Part shown: one piece after another, positions 38,780 through 46,290 of the stretch
Numbering within the stretch: position 1 is the first letter of the stretch
Layout of the letters: each line of letters starts with the position of its first letter
Position numbers and translations under genes: made by a program
Notes under the pieces: generated by a model
Told to the model about the DNA's origin: nothing
Databases searched by the model: none
The model's input: only the letters and a program-made list of their open reading frames with translations
NCBI GenBank assembly: GCA_017625405.1
Contig: JAGALB010000032.1
Coordinates: forward strand, 1 to 51,572
DNA length: 51,572 bases
DNA from: Ruminiclostridium sp.
GTDB taxonomy: Bacteria > Bacillota > Clostridia > Oscillospirales > Ruminococcaceae
Direction: 5' to 3'

Positions 38780-41386
38780 ATGGACAACAAGGAATACCCT
38801 ATCACAGAAACCAATGAACAGCTTCTGAAAAACCTTGAGCGAGTACGTGAAGCTCAGAAGATTTTTGCGGAATACTCACAGGAACAGGTTGACGCAATTT
38901 TCAAGGCTGCGGCAATTGCGGCAAATATGAAGAGAATTCCTCTTGCAAAGATGGCTGTTGAAGAAACAGGCATGGGTGTTATCGAGGACAAGGTTATCAA
39001 GAATAACTACGCTTCCGAATACATCTACAACGCCTACAAGGATACAAAAACCTGCGGAATTATCGAAGAAGACAAGGCCTTCGGTATCAAAAAGGTTGCA
39101 GAACCTATCGGTGTAATCGCAGCGGTTATCCCTACAACCAACCCTACATCAACTGCAATTTTCAAGACTCTCCTTGCATTAAAGACAAGAAACGGTATTA
39201 TCATAAGCCCTCACCCCAGAGCAAAGAAGTGTACCATAGAAGCGGCTAAAATCGTCCTTGAAGCTGCTGTAAAGGCAGGCGCTCCTGAGGGAATTATCGG
39301 TTGGATTGACGTTCCCAGCCTTGAAATGACAAATACTGTTATGAAGGAAGCAGATATTATCCTGGCAACAGGCGGTGCCGGAATGGTTAAGTCTGCATAT
39401 TCCAGCGGTAAGCCCGCACTTGGCGTAGGTGCCGGTAACACTCCTGCTATTATTGATGATACAGCTGATGTAAGCGTTGCTGTAAACTCTATCATTCATT
39501 CAAAGACATTTGATAACGGTATGATCTGTGCATCTGAACAGAGCGTGATCATACTTGAAAAGTTATACAAGAAGGTAAGAACAGAATTTGTAAAGCGTGG
39601 TTGCTACATTCTTAACGACGAAGAATGTGAAAAGGTAAGAAAGACCATTATCATCAACGGCGCACTTAACGCAAAGATAGTAGGTCAGCCTGCTGTAAAA
39701 ATTGCTGAGCTTGCAGGTGTAAATGTTCCTGCAGGCACAAAGATTCTTATCGGCGAGGTTGAAAGCGTTGAACTCAGCGAAGAGTTTGCACACGAAAAGC
39801 TTTCTCCCGTTCTTGCGATGTATAAGGCGAAGGATTTTGAAGATGCACTCTGCAAGGCTGAACGTCTTATCGCAGACGGTGGCTATGGTCATACATCCTC
39901 TCTTTATATCAACGAGATCACTGAGCAGGAAAAGATTCACGCATATGCTGAAAGAATGAAGACCTGCCGTATTCTTATCAATACTCCTTCTTCTCACGGC
40001 GGTATCGGCGACTTATACAATTTCAAGCTTGCACCTTCTCTTACACTGGGCTGCGGCTCCTGGGGCGGCAACTCTGTAAGCGAAAACGTTGGTGTAAAGC
40101 ACCTGATCAATGTTAAGACAGTTGCCGAAAGGAGAGAGAATATGCTTTGGTTCAGAGCACCTGAAAAGGTTTATTTCAAGAAGGGCTGCCTTGCTGTTGC
40201 ACTTGATGAGCTTGGCGCAGTAATGGGTAAGAAGAGAGCGTTTATCGTTACAGACAGCTTCCTTTTCCAGAACGGATATACAAAGGCAGTAACAGATAAG
40301 CTTGATGAAATGGGTATCACACATACCACATTCTTCGAGGTTGAGCCTGATCCTACACTTGAAAGTGCAAGAAAGGGTGCGGCTGCTATGGAGCTGTTCA
40401 AGCCTGATGTTATTATTGCTTTGGGCGGCGGTTCTCCTATGGATGCAGCAAAGATCATGTGGGTTCTCTATGAACATCCTGATGCTGACTTTATGGATAT
40501 GGCAATGCGCTTTATCGATATCAGAAAGAGAATCTATACTTTCCCCAAGATGGGTGAAAAGGCATATTTCGTAGCAATTCCTACTTCTGCAGGTACAGGC
40601 TCCGAAGTTACACCTTTTGCGGTTATTACAGATGAAACAACCGGCGTCAAGTATCCTCTTGCCGACTATGAGCTTATGCCTGATATGGCAATTGTCGATG
40701 CTGACCTCATGATGAACGCTCCCAAGGGTCTTACAAGCGCTTCCGGTATTGATGCAATGACTCATGCTCTCGAAGCATATGTTTCCATGCTTGCAACTCC
40801 CTATACAGACGGTCTTGCAGTCGAAGCAGGCAGACAGATATTCAAATATCTCCCCAGAGCTTACGATGATGGTGCAAATGATCCCGAAGCAAGAGAGGGT
40901 ATGGCTAATGCTGCTACAATCGCAGGTATGGCATTTGCTAACGCTTTCCTCGGTGTATGCCATTCCATGGCTCATAAGCTGGGTGCTTTCTATCACTTAC
41001 CTCACGGTATTGCAAACGCACTTATGATTGATCACGTTATCCGTTTCAACTGCTCCGAAACTCCCGCTAAGATGGGTACTTTCTCCCAGTATGCGTATCC
41101 CCAGACACTTGCAAAGTACGCTGCATTTGCTGAGGGCTGCGGATTCACAGGCAAGAATGACAAGGAAAAGGTTGAAAACTTCATTGAAGGTCTTGATAAG
41201 CTGAAGAAGAAAATCGGTATCAAGGCAACAATCAAGGAATACGGCGTTGATGAAAAGGAATTCCTTGAAAGACTTGATGATATGACAGAACAGGCATTCG
41301 ATGACCAGTGTACAGGTGCAAACCCGAGATACCCTCTCCTTTCTGAAATCAAGCAGATGTATCTCGATGCTTACTATGGAAAGTAA
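38780..41386 (+). CDS. adhE: Bifunctional acetaldehyde-CoA/alcohol dehydrogenase
   Basis: AdhE reduces acetyl-CoA to acetaldehyde and ethanol with two NADH, the main electron sink of mixed-acid fermentation; it forms cytoplasmic spirosomes. The 868-residue protein has an N-terminal aldehyde dehydrogenase domain with catalytic Cys in FDNGMICASEQ and a C-terminal iron-dependent alcohol dehydrogenase: GGGSPMDAAKIMW for NAD, GTGSEVTPFAVIT and Fe ligands in FLGVCHSMAHKLGAFYHLPHG. Full length. SD AAAAGGAG. It is first in a cluster with an APH-like kinase and the pyruvate formate-lyase genes and is preceded by a 314-nt control region with P1, P2 and a Rex site. Confidence 0.97.
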   Translation: MDNKEYPITETNEQLLKNLERVREAQKIFAEYSQEQVDAIFKAAAIAANMKRIPLAKMAVEETGMGVIEDKVIKNNYASEYIYNAYKDTKTCGIIEEDKAFGIKKVAEPIGVIAAVIPTTNPTSTAIFKTLLALKTRNGIIISPHPRAKKCTIEAAKIVLEAAVKAGAPEGIIGWIDVPSLEMTNTVMKEADIILATGGAGMVKSAYSSGKPALGVGAGNTPAIIDDTADVSVAVNSIIHSKTFDNGMICASEQSVIILEKLYKKVRTEFVKRGCYILNDEECEKVRKTIIINGALNAKIVGQPAVKIAELAGVNVPAGTKILIGEVESVELSEEFAHEKLSPVLAMYKAKDFEDALCKAERLIADGGYGHTSSLYINEITEQEKIHAYAERMKTCRILINTPSSHGGIGDLYNFKLAPSLTLGCGSWGGNSVSENVGVKHLINVKTVAERRENMLWFRAPEKVYFKKGCLAVALDELGAVMGKKRAFIVTDSFLFQNGYTKAVTDKLDEMGITHTTFFEVEPDPTLESARKGAAAMELFKPDVIIALGGGSPMDAAKIMWVLYEHPDADFMDMAMRFIDIRKRIYTFPKMGEKAYFVAIPTSAGTGSEVTPFAVITDETTGVKYPLADYELMPDMAIVDADLMMNAPKGLTSASGIDAMTHALEAYVSMLATPYTDGLAVEAGRQIFKYLPRAYDDGANDPEAREGMANAATIAGMAFANAFLGVCHSMAHKLGAFYHLPHGIANALMIDHVIRFNCSETPAKMGTFSQYAYPQTLAKYAAFAEGCGFTGKNDKEKVENFIEGLDKLKKKIGIKATIKEYGVDEKEFLERLDDMTEQAFDDQCTGANPRYPLLSEIKQMYLDAYYGK

Positions 41387-41411
41387 TCTGACAGGGAAAG
41401 GACGAAATATT

Positions 41412-42161
41412 ATGAAACTCAAGAATGAAATTGCAGTAAGAACCAATAAGGTTGTTTACCGTGACGGTGATAAGGCAATCAAGGTATTTGATACCGAATA
41501 CAAGAAGTATGATGTTCTTAATGAGGCTCTCAATCAGGCACGTGTTGAAGAAACAGGACTTAACATCCCCAAGCTCTGGGAAGTCGGTGTGGTTGACGGC
41601 AAGTGGATGATCGTTACAGATTTCATCGAAGGCAAGACACTGGCTCAGCTTATGGAAGAAAATCCTGACAAGATGGATGAATATCTTGATATGTTCGTTG
41701 AGCTTCAGATGAAGGTTCATTCATATAAGTGCCCTCTCCTGAACAAGCTCAAGGACAAGATGCAGGCAAAGATAAGCGCTACATCCCTTGATGCAACAAC
41801 AAGATATGATCTTCATACAAGACTTGAAGGTATGCCCAAGCACAACAAGGTATGCCACGGCGACTTCAACCCCAGCAACATCATTATTTCCGAAGACGGA
41901 ACTCCCTATATTCTTGACTGGGCACATGTAACACAGGGTAACGCATCAGCTGATGTTGCAAGAACTTACCTTTTGTTCTGCCTTGCAGGCAAGACAGATG
42001 TTGCAGACAAGTATCTTGACCTTTTCTGTAAAAAGAGCGATACTGCAAAGCAGTATGTACAGCAGTGGCTTCCCATTGTAGCCGCTTCCCAGTCTGTAAA
42101 GGGCAGAGAACAGGAAAAGGAATTCCTTTTAAGCTGGGTAAATGTTGTTGATTACGAATAA
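41412..42161 (+). CDS. APH/choline kinase-like phosphotransferase
   Basis: A 249-residue protein of the aminoglycoside phosphotransferase/protein-kinase-like fold. The small lobe has AIKVFD (ATP lysine) and WMIVTDFIEG hinge; the catalytic loop is CHGDFNPSNIII (HxDxxxxN) and the metal-binding motif YILDWAHVTQGN (D of DFG type). An open frame from 41301 lies over the adhE end; the ATG at 41412 with GGAAAGGA is preferred. Substrate cannot be told; resistance to aminoglycosides is not implied. Its place between adhE and pflB in one transcription direction suggests a metabolic link, perhaps cofactor or metabolite repair, but this is speculative. Confidence 0.8.
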   Translation: MKLKNEIAVRTNKVVYRDGDKAIKVFDTEYKKYDVLNEALNQARVEETGLNIPKLWEVGVVDGKWMIVTDFIEGKTLAQLMEENPDKMDEYLDMFVELQMKVHSYKCPLLNKLKDKMQAKISATSLDATTRYDLHTRLEGMPKHNKVCHGDFNPSNIIISEDGTPYILDWAHVTQGNASADVARTYLLFCLAGKTDVADKYLDLFCKKSDTAKQYVQQWLPIVAASQSVKGREQEKEFLLSWVNVVDYE

Positions 42162-42215: not shown

Positions 42216-42245
42216 AATATATATAGAACAAAAGGAGTCATGGAT

Positions 42246-44342
42246 ATGACACGTTTTTTTGATGAATGGGAAGGCTTTGAAAAAGGCACATGGGTTAATG
42301 AGATTAATGTCAGAAGCTTTATCAGACATAATTTAAAGCCCTATGACGGTGATGAAGCCTTTCTTGAAAAACCGACACAGGATACAATTGACCTCTGGAA
42401 TCAGGTTATGGAGCTTTCCAAAGAAGAAATTGCCAAGGGCGGCGTTCTTGATATGGATACAAAGGTTATTTCTACTATAACCTCACATGCTCCCGGATAC
42501 CTGAACAAGGACAAGGAAAAGATTGTAGGCTTCCAGACAGACAAGCCCTTCAAGCGTTCGCTGCAGCCCTACGGCGGTATACGTATGGCGGAGAAAGCCT
42601 GCCTTGATAATGGATATAAGGTTGACCCTGAAATAAGCGAGTTTTTCACAGTTCACAGAAAAACTCACAATGCAGGTGTTTTTGATGTATACACTCCCGA
42701 AATGCGTGCATGCCGTTCGAGTCACATTATTACAGGTCTGCCCGATGCATACGGCAGAGGCCGTATTATCGGTGACTATCGCCGTGTAGCTCTTTATGGC
42801 GTTGACAGACTTATTGAAGATAAGCTTGAACAGAAGGAAACCACACGTTCCGCAATGTATTCCGAGGTTATCCGTGAGCGTGAAGAGCTTGCGGAACAGA
42901 TAAGGGCATTAAAGCAGCTTAAAGAAATGGCAATGAGCTACGGTTATGACATTTCCCGTCCTGCTCGTAATACCCAGGAAGCTATCCAGTGGCTGTATTT
43001 CGGCTATCTCGGTGCTGTTAAGGAGCAGAACGGTGCAGCAATGTCCCTTGGCAGAACCTCTACCTTCCTTGATATATATTCCGAAAGAGATTTAAAAAAC
43101 GGAGTGTTCACCGAACAGCAGATTCAGGAATTTGTCGATCACTTCATTATGAAGCTCAGACTTGTAAAGTTTGCAAGAACACCTGAATATAACGCACTTT
43201 TCTCAGGAGACCCCCAGTGGGTAACCGAATCTATCGGCGGTATCGCTGTTGACGGCAGACATATGGTTACAAAGATGTCCTACCGTTATCTGCACACTCT
43301 CACAAACTTAGGCCCTGCGCCTGAGCCTAATCTGACTGTTTTATGGTCGGACAAGCTCCCCATGAATTTCAAGCGTTATTGTGCAAAGACATCAATCGAA
43401 ACCTCTTCTGTACAGTACGAAAATGATAATCTCATGCGTTTTACACACGGTGACGACTATGCGATTGCCTGCTGCGTATCTTCTATGCGAGTAGGTAAGG
43501 AAATGCAGTTCTTCGGTGCAAGAGCCAATCTTGCAAAGTGCCTGCTTTATGCTATCAATGGCGGCCGTGATGAAATTACAGGTCAGCAGGTAGGTCCTGA
43601 ATTTACACCTATTACCTCTGAATATCTTGATTATGACGAGGTAATGAAAAAATATGACGCTATGATGCGCTGGCTTGCGGAGGTGTATGTAAATACACTT
43701 AACGTAATCCATTATATGCATGATAAATATTGCTACGAAAAGCTTCAGATGGCTCTTCACGATAAGCGTGTGACACGCTGGTTCGCAACAGGTATTGCCG
43801 GACTTTCCGTAGTTGCCGATTCACTTTCAGCTATCAAGTACGCTAAGGTTAAGGTTATCCGTGATGAAACCGGCCTTGCGGTTGATTATCAGGTTGAGGG
43901 CGATTTCCCGAAGTACGGAAATGATGATGACCGTGTTGACGAAATTGCATGCAAAATCGTTCATGCTTTCATGGAACATGTACGCAAGAACCACACTTAC
44001 AGAAACAGTATTCCTACAACTTCCATTCTTACAATTACTTCGAATGTAGTATATGGAAAGGCAACAGGCTCGACGCCTGACGGACGTAAGCGTGGCGAGG
44101 CATTTGCTCCCGGCGCCAACCCCATGCACAGACGTGATACAAAGGGTGCGGTTGCATCCCTTGCATCTGTATCAAAGCTTCCTTTCAAGGATGCACAGGA
44201 CGGTATTTCCAATACCTTCTCCATTATTCCCGGTGCACTCGGTAAGGACGACAGAATCTTTACAGGTGATATAGATGTTGATTGCGTCGGCGGTGCATGT
44301 TCCAATCCTACACTTTTTGAAGGTCTGGATACAGATGAATAA
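42246..44342 (+). CDS. pflB: Pyruvate formate-lyase catalytic core lacking glycyl-radical domain
   Basis: PFL splits pyruvate and CoA to acetyl-CoA and formate. The 698-residue protein contains the full PFL barrel, with the catalytic Cys pair C409-C410 in [24 protein letters not shown]. It ends, however, after [28 protein letters not shown] plus a novel tail (with [15 protein letters not shown]) and a normal stop, about 60 residues before the place where the RVSGYA glycyl-radical loop occurs in ordinary PFL of about 750 residues. That domain is encoded by the next gene. Start: AAAGGAG is 2 nt from ATG 42240 but 8 nt from ATG 42246, so 42246 is chosen. No frameshift: clear stop, new SD and start follow. 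Confidence 0.93.
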
Positions 44343-44372
44343 GAAATAACAAACCGAAAGGAGAAATTTAAT

Positions 44373-44615
44373 ATGGCAGCAACTGAAAATCAGATTGACA
44401 ACCTTGTTGGACTTCTTGACGGATATGTAAAAAAGGGTGGACACCACCTCAATGTAAATGTATTCACAAAAGAAACGCTTCTTGATGCACAGAAGCATCC
44501 CGAAAAGTATCCTCAGCTTACAGTCCGTGTCAGCGGATATGCGGTAAACTTTGTAAAGCTTACAAAGGAACAGCAGGATGAGGTAATTTCCAGAACATTC
44601 CACGAACAGATTTAA
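44373..44615 (+). CDS. grcA: Autonomous glycyl-radical subunit of pyruvate formate-lyase (GrcA-like)
   Basis: An 80-residue protein equal to the C-terminal glycyl-radical domain of [44 protein letters not shown], and [14 protein letters not shown]. The radical would form on Gly55 in RVSGYA. It resembles E. coli YfiD/GrcA, a spare domain replacing an oxygen-damaged PFL C-terminus, but here no intact PFL domain exists in the adjacent core, so it should be an obligate subunit. SD AAAGGAG 9 nt upstream of ATG 44373, 30 nt after pflB. The activase gene begins 2 nt after its stop, consistent with coupled synthesis. Confidence 0.93.
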
Positions 44616-44617
44616 AA

Positions 44618-45376
44618 ATGACGGGTTATATACATTCAGTGGAGAGCTTCGGTACAGTAGACGGTCCGGGAATAAGAATGGTTATATTCTTTCAGGGTTG
44701 TCCGATGCGCTGCAAGTATTGTCATAATCCCGATACCTGGGCCTATGGCAAAGGTACTCAGATGACCGCAGATGAATTGCTGGAGCAATATGACAAAAAT
44801 AAAGAATTTTACAGTAACGGAGGGATAACCGTCACAGGCGGAGAGCCCCTTGTCCAGATTGACTTTCTTACGGAATTACTGGAAAAGGCAAAGAAAAGAG
44901 ATATCCATACCTGTATAGACACATCGGGCGTCACTTTTAATCCTGATAGTGTGCAGGGAATGGAAAAGCTTGACAGGCTTATGGAGTTTACTGACCTTAT
45001 AATGCTTGATTTAAAGCATTTTGACAGTGGTGAACATAAGGAACTTACAGGGCATGGCAATGAAAATATACTTGCTTTTGCTTCGTATCTTGAAAAAAAG
45101 CGCAAGCCTGTATGGATAAGACATGTTGTAGTCCCGGGGATTACTGATAATATTTCACATCTTGAAAAACTCGGCGGCTTTATAGGCGGATTATCAAATC
45201 TCAAAGCTCTTGATGTACTCGGTTATCATACGCTTGGCGTAAACAAGTACAAGGAGCTGGGGATTCCTTATCCCCTTGAAAATGTTCCGCAGGCTTCGGC
45301 TGATGAGGTTATGAAAGCCAAAAAAGTCATATATGATTCACTGATTAAGACCCGTAAAGAGAAATTCGGAAAATAA
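44618..45376 (+). CDS. pflA: Pyruvate formate-lyase-activating enzyme
   Basis: PflA is the radical SAM enzyme that abstracts the hydrogen from the PFL glycine in anaerobic conditions. The 252-residue protein has the Fe4S4 motif C28-x3-C32-x2-C35 in FFQGCPMRCKYCHNPDTW, the N-terminal ESFGTVDGPGIR and TVTGGEPLVQ (SAM binding). Its substrate here is probably the separate glycyl-radical protein encoded immediately upstream (2-nt gap); there is no clear SD of its own, so translation is probably coupled. A strong terminator follows at 45378. Third of the pfl gene set. Confidence 0.96.
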   Translation: MTGYIHSVESFGTVDGPGIRMVIFFQGCPMRCKYCHNPDTWAYGKGTQMTADELLEQYDKNKEFYSNGGITVTGGEPLVQIDFLTELLEKAKKRDIHTCIDTSGVTFNPDSVQGMEKLDRLMEFTDLIMLDLKHFDSGEHKELTGHGNENILAFASYLEKKRKPVWIRHVVVPGITDNISHLEKLGGFIGGLSNLKALDVLGYHTLGVNKYKELGIPYPLENVPQASADEVMKAKKVIYDSLIKTRKEKFGK

Positions 45377-45377
45377 A

Positions 45378-45416
45378 TAATGCCTGATGGTTTCGCCATC
45401 AGGCATTATCTGTTTT
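45378..45416 (+). terminator. Terminator of the adhE-pfl cluster
   Basis: Perfect 13-bp stem TAATGCCTGATGG/CCATCAGGCATTA (loop TTTCG) then TCTGTTTTT. Confidence 0.9.
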
Positions 45417-45473: not shown

Positions 45474-45503
45474 TTGACACTGAATGCTGTGCTATGTTAT
45501 AAT
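45474..45503 (+). promoter_or_regulatory. Promoter of the SDR/ECF/DUF1893/AKR operon
   Basis: TTGACA (45474-45479), 18 nt, TATAAT (45498-45503). TTAACAA follows at 45503-45509, but a full Rex palindrome is not formed. Confidence 0.75.
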
Positions 45504-45537: not shown

Positions 45538-46290
45538 ATGGTTAACGTAAAAGGTCGATGGGCACTTATCACAGGTGCGGCAAGAGGTATCGGTTATTTG
45601 ACAGCAAAGTTTATGGCTGAACAGGGTTGTAACCTTATTCTCCACAGCCGTAATATTACTCATACAGAAAAGGTTGCTGAGGAAGTAAAGGCAATGGGTG
45701 TTGAAGCATATGCTGTTCAGGCTGAATTATCTGATCTTGACAGCGTTCAGAAGATGCTTGAAGAAATTGACAAGCTCGGTGTAAGAGTAGATATCGTTCT
45801 TAACAACGCAGGTATGCAGATTGCTTACCGTACAGACTATTTCAAGACACCTGTTGAGGATTATACAGAAAGCTTCAAGATAAACACTGTTGCTCCTGCT
45901 ATGATCTGTTATCATTTCATGCCCAAAATGATTGAAAACGGCTTCGGCAGAATTTTAAATACAACAAGCGGTATCAGACTTGAACCCGAACAGGCTGGTT
46001 ACTCCGCAAGCAAGGCTGCCCTTGACAAGATTACAATTGACCTTGGCTCCAAGGTTGAGGGAACAGATGTCATGATCAATCTTACTGACCCCGGCTGGTG
46101 CAGAACTGATTTAGGCGGTCCTCATGCTCCCAATGCCCCTGAAAGTGCAATTCCCGGTATTGTTGTCGGTGCATTTGTGGATGACAAGAAGTCAGGCAGA
46201 TATCTTAACGCTCCTTTCTTTACAGGTATGACACTCGAAGATGCAGTAAAGAAGGCAGAAGCAGAATTTGACAGTCCTTATAATAAGTAA
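45538..46290 (+). CDS. Short-chain dehydrogenase/reductase
   Basis: A 250-residue classical SDR: the cofactor motif TGAARGIG (TGxxxGxG), LNNAG, the catalytic Ser in LNTTSG and the YSASK Tyr/Lys pair. Substrate unknown: 3-oxoacyl-ACP reductase-like or sugar reductase are both possible. The N-x-x-x-S-x-x-x-Y-x-x-x-K pattern is intact, so it is probably active. SD AAAGAGG. First of a four-gene operon (next starts 13 nt downstream). Confidence 0.88.
   Translation: MVNVKGRWALITGAARGIGYLTAKFMAEQGCNLILHSRNITHTEKVAEEVKAMGVEAYAVQAELSDLDSVQKMLEEIDKLGVRVDIVLNNAGMQIAYRTDYFKTPVEDYTESFKINTVAPAMICYHFMPKMIENGFGRILNTTSGIRLEPEQAGYSASKAALDKITIDLGSKVEGTDVMINLTDPGWCRTDLGGPHAPNAPESAIPGIVVGAFVDDKKSGRYLNAPFFTGMTLEDAVKKAEAEFDSPYNK

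Follow-up and report, generated by a model that had tools for sequence, protein, structure and literature searches.

Gut and rumen bacteria that appear to make pyruvate formate-lyase as a large core and a separate radical-carrying piece

Pyruvate formate-lyase (PFL) usually bears its glycyl radical in its own chain, where oxygen cuts it irreversibly. Here, we describe a PFL locus in a 51,572-nucleotide (nt) stretch of DNA from Ruminiclostridium sp. (contig JAGALB010000032.1 of assembly GCA_017625405.1; hereafter the window), in which the catalytic core and the glycyl-radical domain are encoded by separate genes. Comparison with related loci suggests that PFL is made as a large core and a separate radical-carrying piece in many gut and rumen bacteria. 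We consider that these loci very probably encode an obligate multi-chain PFL, consisting of the core, the stand-alone radical protein GrcA3 and a two-cysteine module. By sequence comparison, this module is a conserved third part, joined to the core as its tail in some species and made as a protein of its own in others; the recognition of the tail as a conserved module, together with its separate-gene form, is what is new here.

The core gene (42246..44342; all features described lie on the + strand) encodes 698 amino acids (aa), counting the Met at 42246, and is preceded by a Shine-Dalgarno-like word, AAAAGGAG (42230..42237), 8 nt from the ATG. The product scored 1098.8 bits against TIGR01255 (cut-off 994.2) and contains the catalytic Cys pair Cys409-Cys410 (43470-43475), which is invariant across a 29-row alignment. 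The match covers only profile positions 1-665 of 744; the glycyl-radical domain is absent from the chain, and its loop lies in the adjacent gene. After the residues LGKDD, the core ends in a tail of 29 residues (44253..44339) that is conserved in related split cores and includes the cysteine module (44280-44330; Cys codons 44283-44285 and 44298-44300), followed by a TAA (44340..44342). After a gap of 30 nt, which contains the Shine-Dalgarno-like word AAAGGAG (44357..44363), comes grcA3 (44373..44615), encoding a stand-alone glycyl-radical domain of 80 aa with the loop RVSGYA (Gly55 at 44535-44537). This small protein is a member of the NCBIfam family NF038360, GrcA3 (168.1 bits, cut-off 158), and scored below the cut-off of TIGR04365, the GrcA/YfiD family (93.3 bits, cut-off 170). 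Two nt downstream begins the gene for a radical SAM PFL activase of 252 aa (44618..45376; 299.5 bits against TIGR02493, cut-off 231.75). An earlier note, made from the window's letters alone, had described this layout: a 698-residue core with the Cys pair that stops before the glycyl loop, the loop on an 80-residue protein 30 nt downstream, the activase 2 nt further and Shine-Dalgarno-like words before core and small gene. All of this was borne out. Its view of the small protein as a separate GrcA-type domain also stands, except that the protein already has a family name, GrcA3, other than that of TIGR04365. The cysteine tail that it noticed is present but, counted after LGKDD, is 29 rather than 26 residues long, and it is not novel, being conserved elsewhere.

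The separate domain accompanies the sole PFL that we found in its genome. This genome (2.1 Mb, 64 contigs, 99.9% complete) gave one PFL-like match and two Gly_radical matches, one to the end of the split core and one to GrcA3 of the same locus; no further PFL was found in it beyond the split locus, an outcome on which the earlier note had made its proposal depend. A TIGR01255 search found no full-length PFL in 41 of 43 genomes with a stand-alone GrcA3; these have the split core alone or core pieces at contig ends, and one (G112) adds a single weak match of 209.5 bits. Gene content thus supports an obligate multi-chain PFL well. The two-chain enzyme envisaged in the earlier note is supported as to the separate radical gene but was one part short, since the cysteine module is a third part and a separate protein elsewhere.

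To survey the split, we searched the NF038360 profile in genomes of the order, class, phylum and genus. In the order, 21 of 394 genomes had a match above the cut-off, in open frames measuring 81-152 aa; the weaker matches among those listed were mostly intact PFLs, in frames of about 740-930 aa, the exceptions with shorter frames being G224, G175, G096, G207 and G245. The class gave 21 of 391 genomes, own genome counted, and two more stand-alone frames marginally below the cut-off (G597 and G607); the phylum gave 2 of 398, the window's own genome and another from its class; and none of 24 congeners had a match above the cut-off. A contig scan of named genomes, of which the best 80 of at least 580 relatives were kept, yielded 77 split loci, two intact ones (L196 and L210) and one with the small gene only (L215). 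The relatives kept include Ruminococcus sp. YE71, Blautia sp. An81, Lachnoclostridium sp. An118, Beduini massiliensis GM1, Lacrimispora xylanisolvens DSM 3808, [Clostridium] citroniae WAL-17108 and the complete isolate genome of Claveliimonas bilis c-25. All compared loci (n = 157) comprise 120 split, 35 intact and 2 small-only loci, which is not a frequency because intact loci were fetched deliberately and some genomes are present twice.

Removal of identical cores and of split loci with fewer than 500 core residues left a distinct set of 110 split and 35 intact loci. In all 110, the core has the Cys pair, the small protein has R[VI]SGYA and the two genes lie on the same strand; R[VI]SGYA was found in none of the 110 cores. 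A Shine-Dalgarno-like word precedes the small gene in 106 of the 110 (by a loose rule, with called starts that are ATG in only 90). An activase gene follows within 300 nt in 84, and in 18 none lies within the stretch fetched. As a separate observation, a Spirochaetales metagenome-assembled genome (MAG; Spiro_02, locus L197) has a split PFL with a DCACC tail, which may reflect transfer outside Bacillota or a binning error.

The cysteine module became apparent from loci with long gaps between core and grcA3. Where this gap measures 150-500 nt, as it does in 38 split loci, a further coding frame lies in it every time, and we rejected the idea that the long gap is a regulatory RNA. Three of the middle genes (L057, L122 and L126) were missed by the start rule and identified by reading the gaps; the 35 called by rule encode 58-85 aa, except one of 110 aa (L177:3650-3979) whose long acidic extension is absent from the others. 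The first half of the middle protein (consensus IDxLVxMIDxLMxxGxGHxN) is similar to the beginning of GrcA3 and of the radical domain; the glycyl loop is missing. NF038360 matched 4 of 10 middle proteins at E <= 0.001 (best 2.9e-5, residues 5-36), another 4 more weakly and 2 not at all, and in the reverse search the first 35 positions of a middle-protein profile (A1) matched GrcA3 and the radical domains of intact PFLs at E 2.8e-7 to 6.8e-4. The second half (DCxxGxxACxVPTLFEGxD in the Lacrimispora type) and the window's core tail are one and the same module: among the 74 tails from loci that lack a middle gene, a profile of this half matched 48 at E <= 0.001, including the window's tail (E 2.2e-6), and none of 1480 shuffled tails reached that threshold.

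By sequence, tail and middle protein are therefore homologous, and their distribution is mutually exclusive. Of the 110 distinct split loci, 36 combine a middle gene with a core tail free of Cys, 68 have two or more Cys in the tail but lack a middle gene, 6 have neither and none has both (Fisher p 4e-23, uncorrected for kinship). One of the six (L110) has its middle gene after grcA3. All 38 middle proteins have at least two Cys, and the pattern C..C..P occurs in 60 of the 68 Cys tails and PTLF in 42, so the tails are not uniform. The ratio of nonsynonymous to synonymous rates (dN/dS) of the middle gene was 0.11-0.21 in 6 of 9 pairs with finite dS, and core tails gave dN 0.04-0.29 with dS 0.65-1.3 or saturated (11 pairs). 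Across 147 genomes of the order, the middle-protein profile had one full-length match, within a split locus. No relative of the cysteine half was found in Pfam or NCBIfam, with 10 of the 38 middle proteins scanned, or in the PDB, where the whole middle protein gave weak matches only; PHROGs, searched with four middle proteins, gave weak matches for two (best E 0.0052).

In the window, core and grcA3 share one reading frame, which is open from the single TAA between them to the small gene, so the window alone is unable to exclude a false or read-through stop. The earlier note's local argument against a sequencing error does not suffice on this point, and its conclusion stands by comparison. The lone in-frame TAA would fit an error of sequencing or assembly, or an intact pflB recently interrupted by a nonsense mutation, but the same break recurs in 120 of the 157 loci, in differing frames and with differing gaps, in named isolates and one complete genome; moreover, PTLF is common to many tails, and grcA3 has its own start and Shine-Dalgarno-like word. 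Error is thus excluded by comparison for practical purposes, and a pseudogene reading was rejected on the same comparison with related loci. Programmed read-through of the TAA, yielding some fused PFL with the free small protein as by-product or spare, would agree with the open frame of the window and with frame 0 being the commonest among the 70 distinct loci with no middle gene and a gap below 100 nt. Frame 0 accounts for 30 of these, but 25 and 15 are in the other two frames, a whole extra gene intervenes in the middle-gene loci, and nearly all small genes have an upstream Shine-Dalgarno-like word by the loose rule and roughly called starts described above. We consider read-through very improbable. 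We hold it just as improbable that GrcA3 is a mere spare part that repairs an intact PFL in the style of E. coli YfiD. It is the same domain, and its NCBIfam name is 'autonomous glycyl radical cofactor'; however, the window's genome has no other PFL with which it could coexist, the same holds for the full-length enzyme in nearly all GrcA3 genomes, and the adjacent core never has a radical loop.

An obligate multi-chain PFL would work as follows. The core would contribute the active site and the catalytic Cys pair, and GrcA3 is predicted to dock where the C-terminal glycyl-radical domain usually sits. The co-encoded activase would install the radical in trans on Gly55 of GrcA3, the assembled core and GrcA3 would produce acetyl-CoA and formate, and the two-cysteine module would be supplied in cis, as the core tail in the window, or in trans, as the small middle protein. 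A structure model of core and GrcA3 joined as a read-through product had a predicted template modelling score (pTM) of 0.86 and superposed on E. coli PFL with a root-mean-square deviation of 1.9 over 742 residues. The modelling proposed in the earlier note thus recovered the fold and left the tail unplaced; no placement was obtained by structure prediction for the tail or the middle protein.

What the module might do is suggested by experiments on the E. coli enzyme. According to PMC8683613, E. coli PFL truncated after residue 695 and combined with YfiD has wild-type activity once activated, but without residues 696-733 binding is undetected and the radical yield is 32-fold lower. The natural split cores end near residue 695, so that the lost recognition segment may need a substitute, for which the radical-domain-like middle protein and the cysteine module are candidates. 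We tentatively, and with little conviction, propose that the module serves GrcA3 as a landing or holding element, replacing the E. coli 696-733 segment, and that its cysteines make it redox-responsive. A somewhat fuller version, which we put slightly higher while still doubting it, is a three-part PFL in which the module is a radical-domain look-alike with a dithiol in place of the glycyl loop. It would occupy the seat of the swappable radical domain while GrcA3 is missing or damaged, respond to redox state and give way to a fresh GrcA3, the window's lineage keeping only the C-terminal dithiol part. By analogy with YfiD/GrcA, it is plausible that a damaged GrcA3 would be swapped by remaking only 80 residues. 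The cysteines hint at redox control or at metal binding. On the latter account, the module would bind a metal or an iron-sulphur cluster as part of an accessory subunit, like those of benzylsuccinate synthase, and would tune thiyl radical formation. The occurrence of at least two Cys in every middle protein and every Cys tail fits this, as does the promotion of thiyl radical formation by the 4Fe-4S accessory subunit BSS beta described in PMC12590467. On the other hand, often just two Cys are conserved, insufficient alone for a 4Fe-4S cluster, and the cysteine half lacks a database relative in the searches above. We regard a metal site as unlikely, a little more so than the landing element.

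Several observations weigh against an obligate multi-chain enzyme with this module. Two of the 43 GrcA3 genomes (G756 and G657) own a full-length PFL besides the split locus, and in five of the 110 split loci (L123, L124, L129, L199 and L201) the stretch fetched contains no Cys tail and no middle gene. Those same two genomes are the source of L123 and L124; in the genome of L129 no other PFL turned up, so the module is not an absolute requirement. The model alignment contains intact PFLs, so that docking is partly built in, and the predicted local distance difference test score (pLDDT) is below 50 for the tail (672-709) and for most of the middle protein. GrcA3 also lacks the disordered first half that aids binding of E. 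coli YfiD. Gene layout, single-PFL content, conservation and horizontal spread can be read from the sequences, as can the homology and mutual exclusion of tail and middle protein, whereas docking, activation and activity in trans and the exchange of damaged GrcA3 are inferred. Among the loci without a module, L129 is the earliest-branching split core and ends at LGKDD without a tail, with grcA3 10 nt on, and is possibly a minimal split PFL; in L199 and L201, from two Eubacterium MAGs, the activase gene follows the core and precedes grcA3.

The split looks to have had a single origin, followed by horizontal spread and later re-fusion in one group. A tree built from 145 cores places the 110 split rows together with 8 intact rows (L063-L066, L131, L132, L196 and L210) in one clade with 98% local support, and the remaining 27 intact rows lie outside it. 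The 8 intact rows are nested in clades of 85 and 88 rows (100% and 99% support), with 91% for their own grouping; lying deep within the split clade, they are read as re-fusions. In one of them (L210), a single chain comprises the core, a cysteine-bearing insert (TCGCEEVTC) and the radical domain. Placing all split rows in a single clade of their own cost 71.8 log-likelihood units on a chosen 65-row subset (LG+G4) and was rejected by the approximately unbiased (AU) test, though not by much (p 0.042). Compared with the intact PFLs of seven congeners (L067-L073), the window's core shows 60-64% identity, against 86-87% with split cores of another family (L048 and L049), whereas RpoB of the same genome is 79-82% identical to that of the same congeners (71% for one small piece) and 67-68% to that of the L048/L049 family. 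As the core is nearer the other family while RpoB is nearer the congeners, the cassette moves between families and reached the window's lineage horizontally. The possibility raised by the earlier note that the split is ancestral therefore does not hold for the genus, given these intact congeners and the absence of GrcA3 above cut-off from all 24.

Among known systems, E. coli PflB (TIGR01255, PDB 2pfl) shares the fold, the Cys pair and the glycyl loop but is one chain, whereas the window's PFL is two chains plus the cysteine module. E. coli GrcA/YfiD, like GrcA3, is a stand-alone radical domain that fits a PFL core without its own. E. coli keeps an intact PflB, and its YfiD has about 60 disordered N-terminal residues (PMC8683613); the split core, by contrast, is always without a radical domain, and the window's GrcA3 has 80 aa. 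The NF038360 entry names the small protein alone, with the core, the cysteine tail and the middle protein outside it. In benzylsuccinate synthase, the radical domain remains in the large chain. That enzyme shares with the split PFL the character of a glycyl radical enzyme with small extra subunits, beta and gamma beside the large alpha chain, and its small subunits bear 4Fe-4S clusters (PMC12590467). Two PDB chains of 2026 named 'Formate acetyltransferase', 38la_A and 38lb_A, have 687 and 739 residues and end before the radical domain. Their nearest rows in the compared set are split cores at 76% and 74%, and by sequence they look like the radical-domain-less cores of the split group, either natural split cores or cut constructs; their aligned parts stop short of the cysteine module, and a PDB search with the small protein returned no chain from the 38la and 38lb entries. 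Among the matches listed in a search of the open-access literature, there was no report of a split or two-chain PFL, of the third part or of GrcA3 by name. GrcA-like radical domains match 1539 of 50,697 phage records, most of which carry enterobacterial phage names; the closest at full length sit in short faecal records without annotation, possibly bacterial in origin.

Around the locus, the core is preceded by a frame at 38780-41386 that we take to be an AdhE-like bifunctional aldehyde/alcohol dehydrogenase and by a presumably kinase-like (phosphotransferase) frame at 41301-42161. Downstream of the activase, a consensus scan alone indicated a terminator-like hairpin (45377..45409; a 15-pair stem, then CTGTTTTT). 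A perfect 12/12 sigma-70-type match (45474-45503; TTGACA, 18 nt, TATAAT, with a preceding TG) lies upstream of the next gene at 45538.

This case shows the fission of a central metabolic enzyme, its horizontal spread and its apparent re-fusion, and the middle protein constitutes a small family unlisted in the Pfam and NCBIfam copies searched. A natural group with the radical domain on a separate chain is a ready system for studying radical-domain exchange in cells and the oxygen survival of gut anaerobes, and it opens the question of the cysteine module's role. If the three-part reading were true, an anaerobe would throw away just the 80 residues cut by oxygen.
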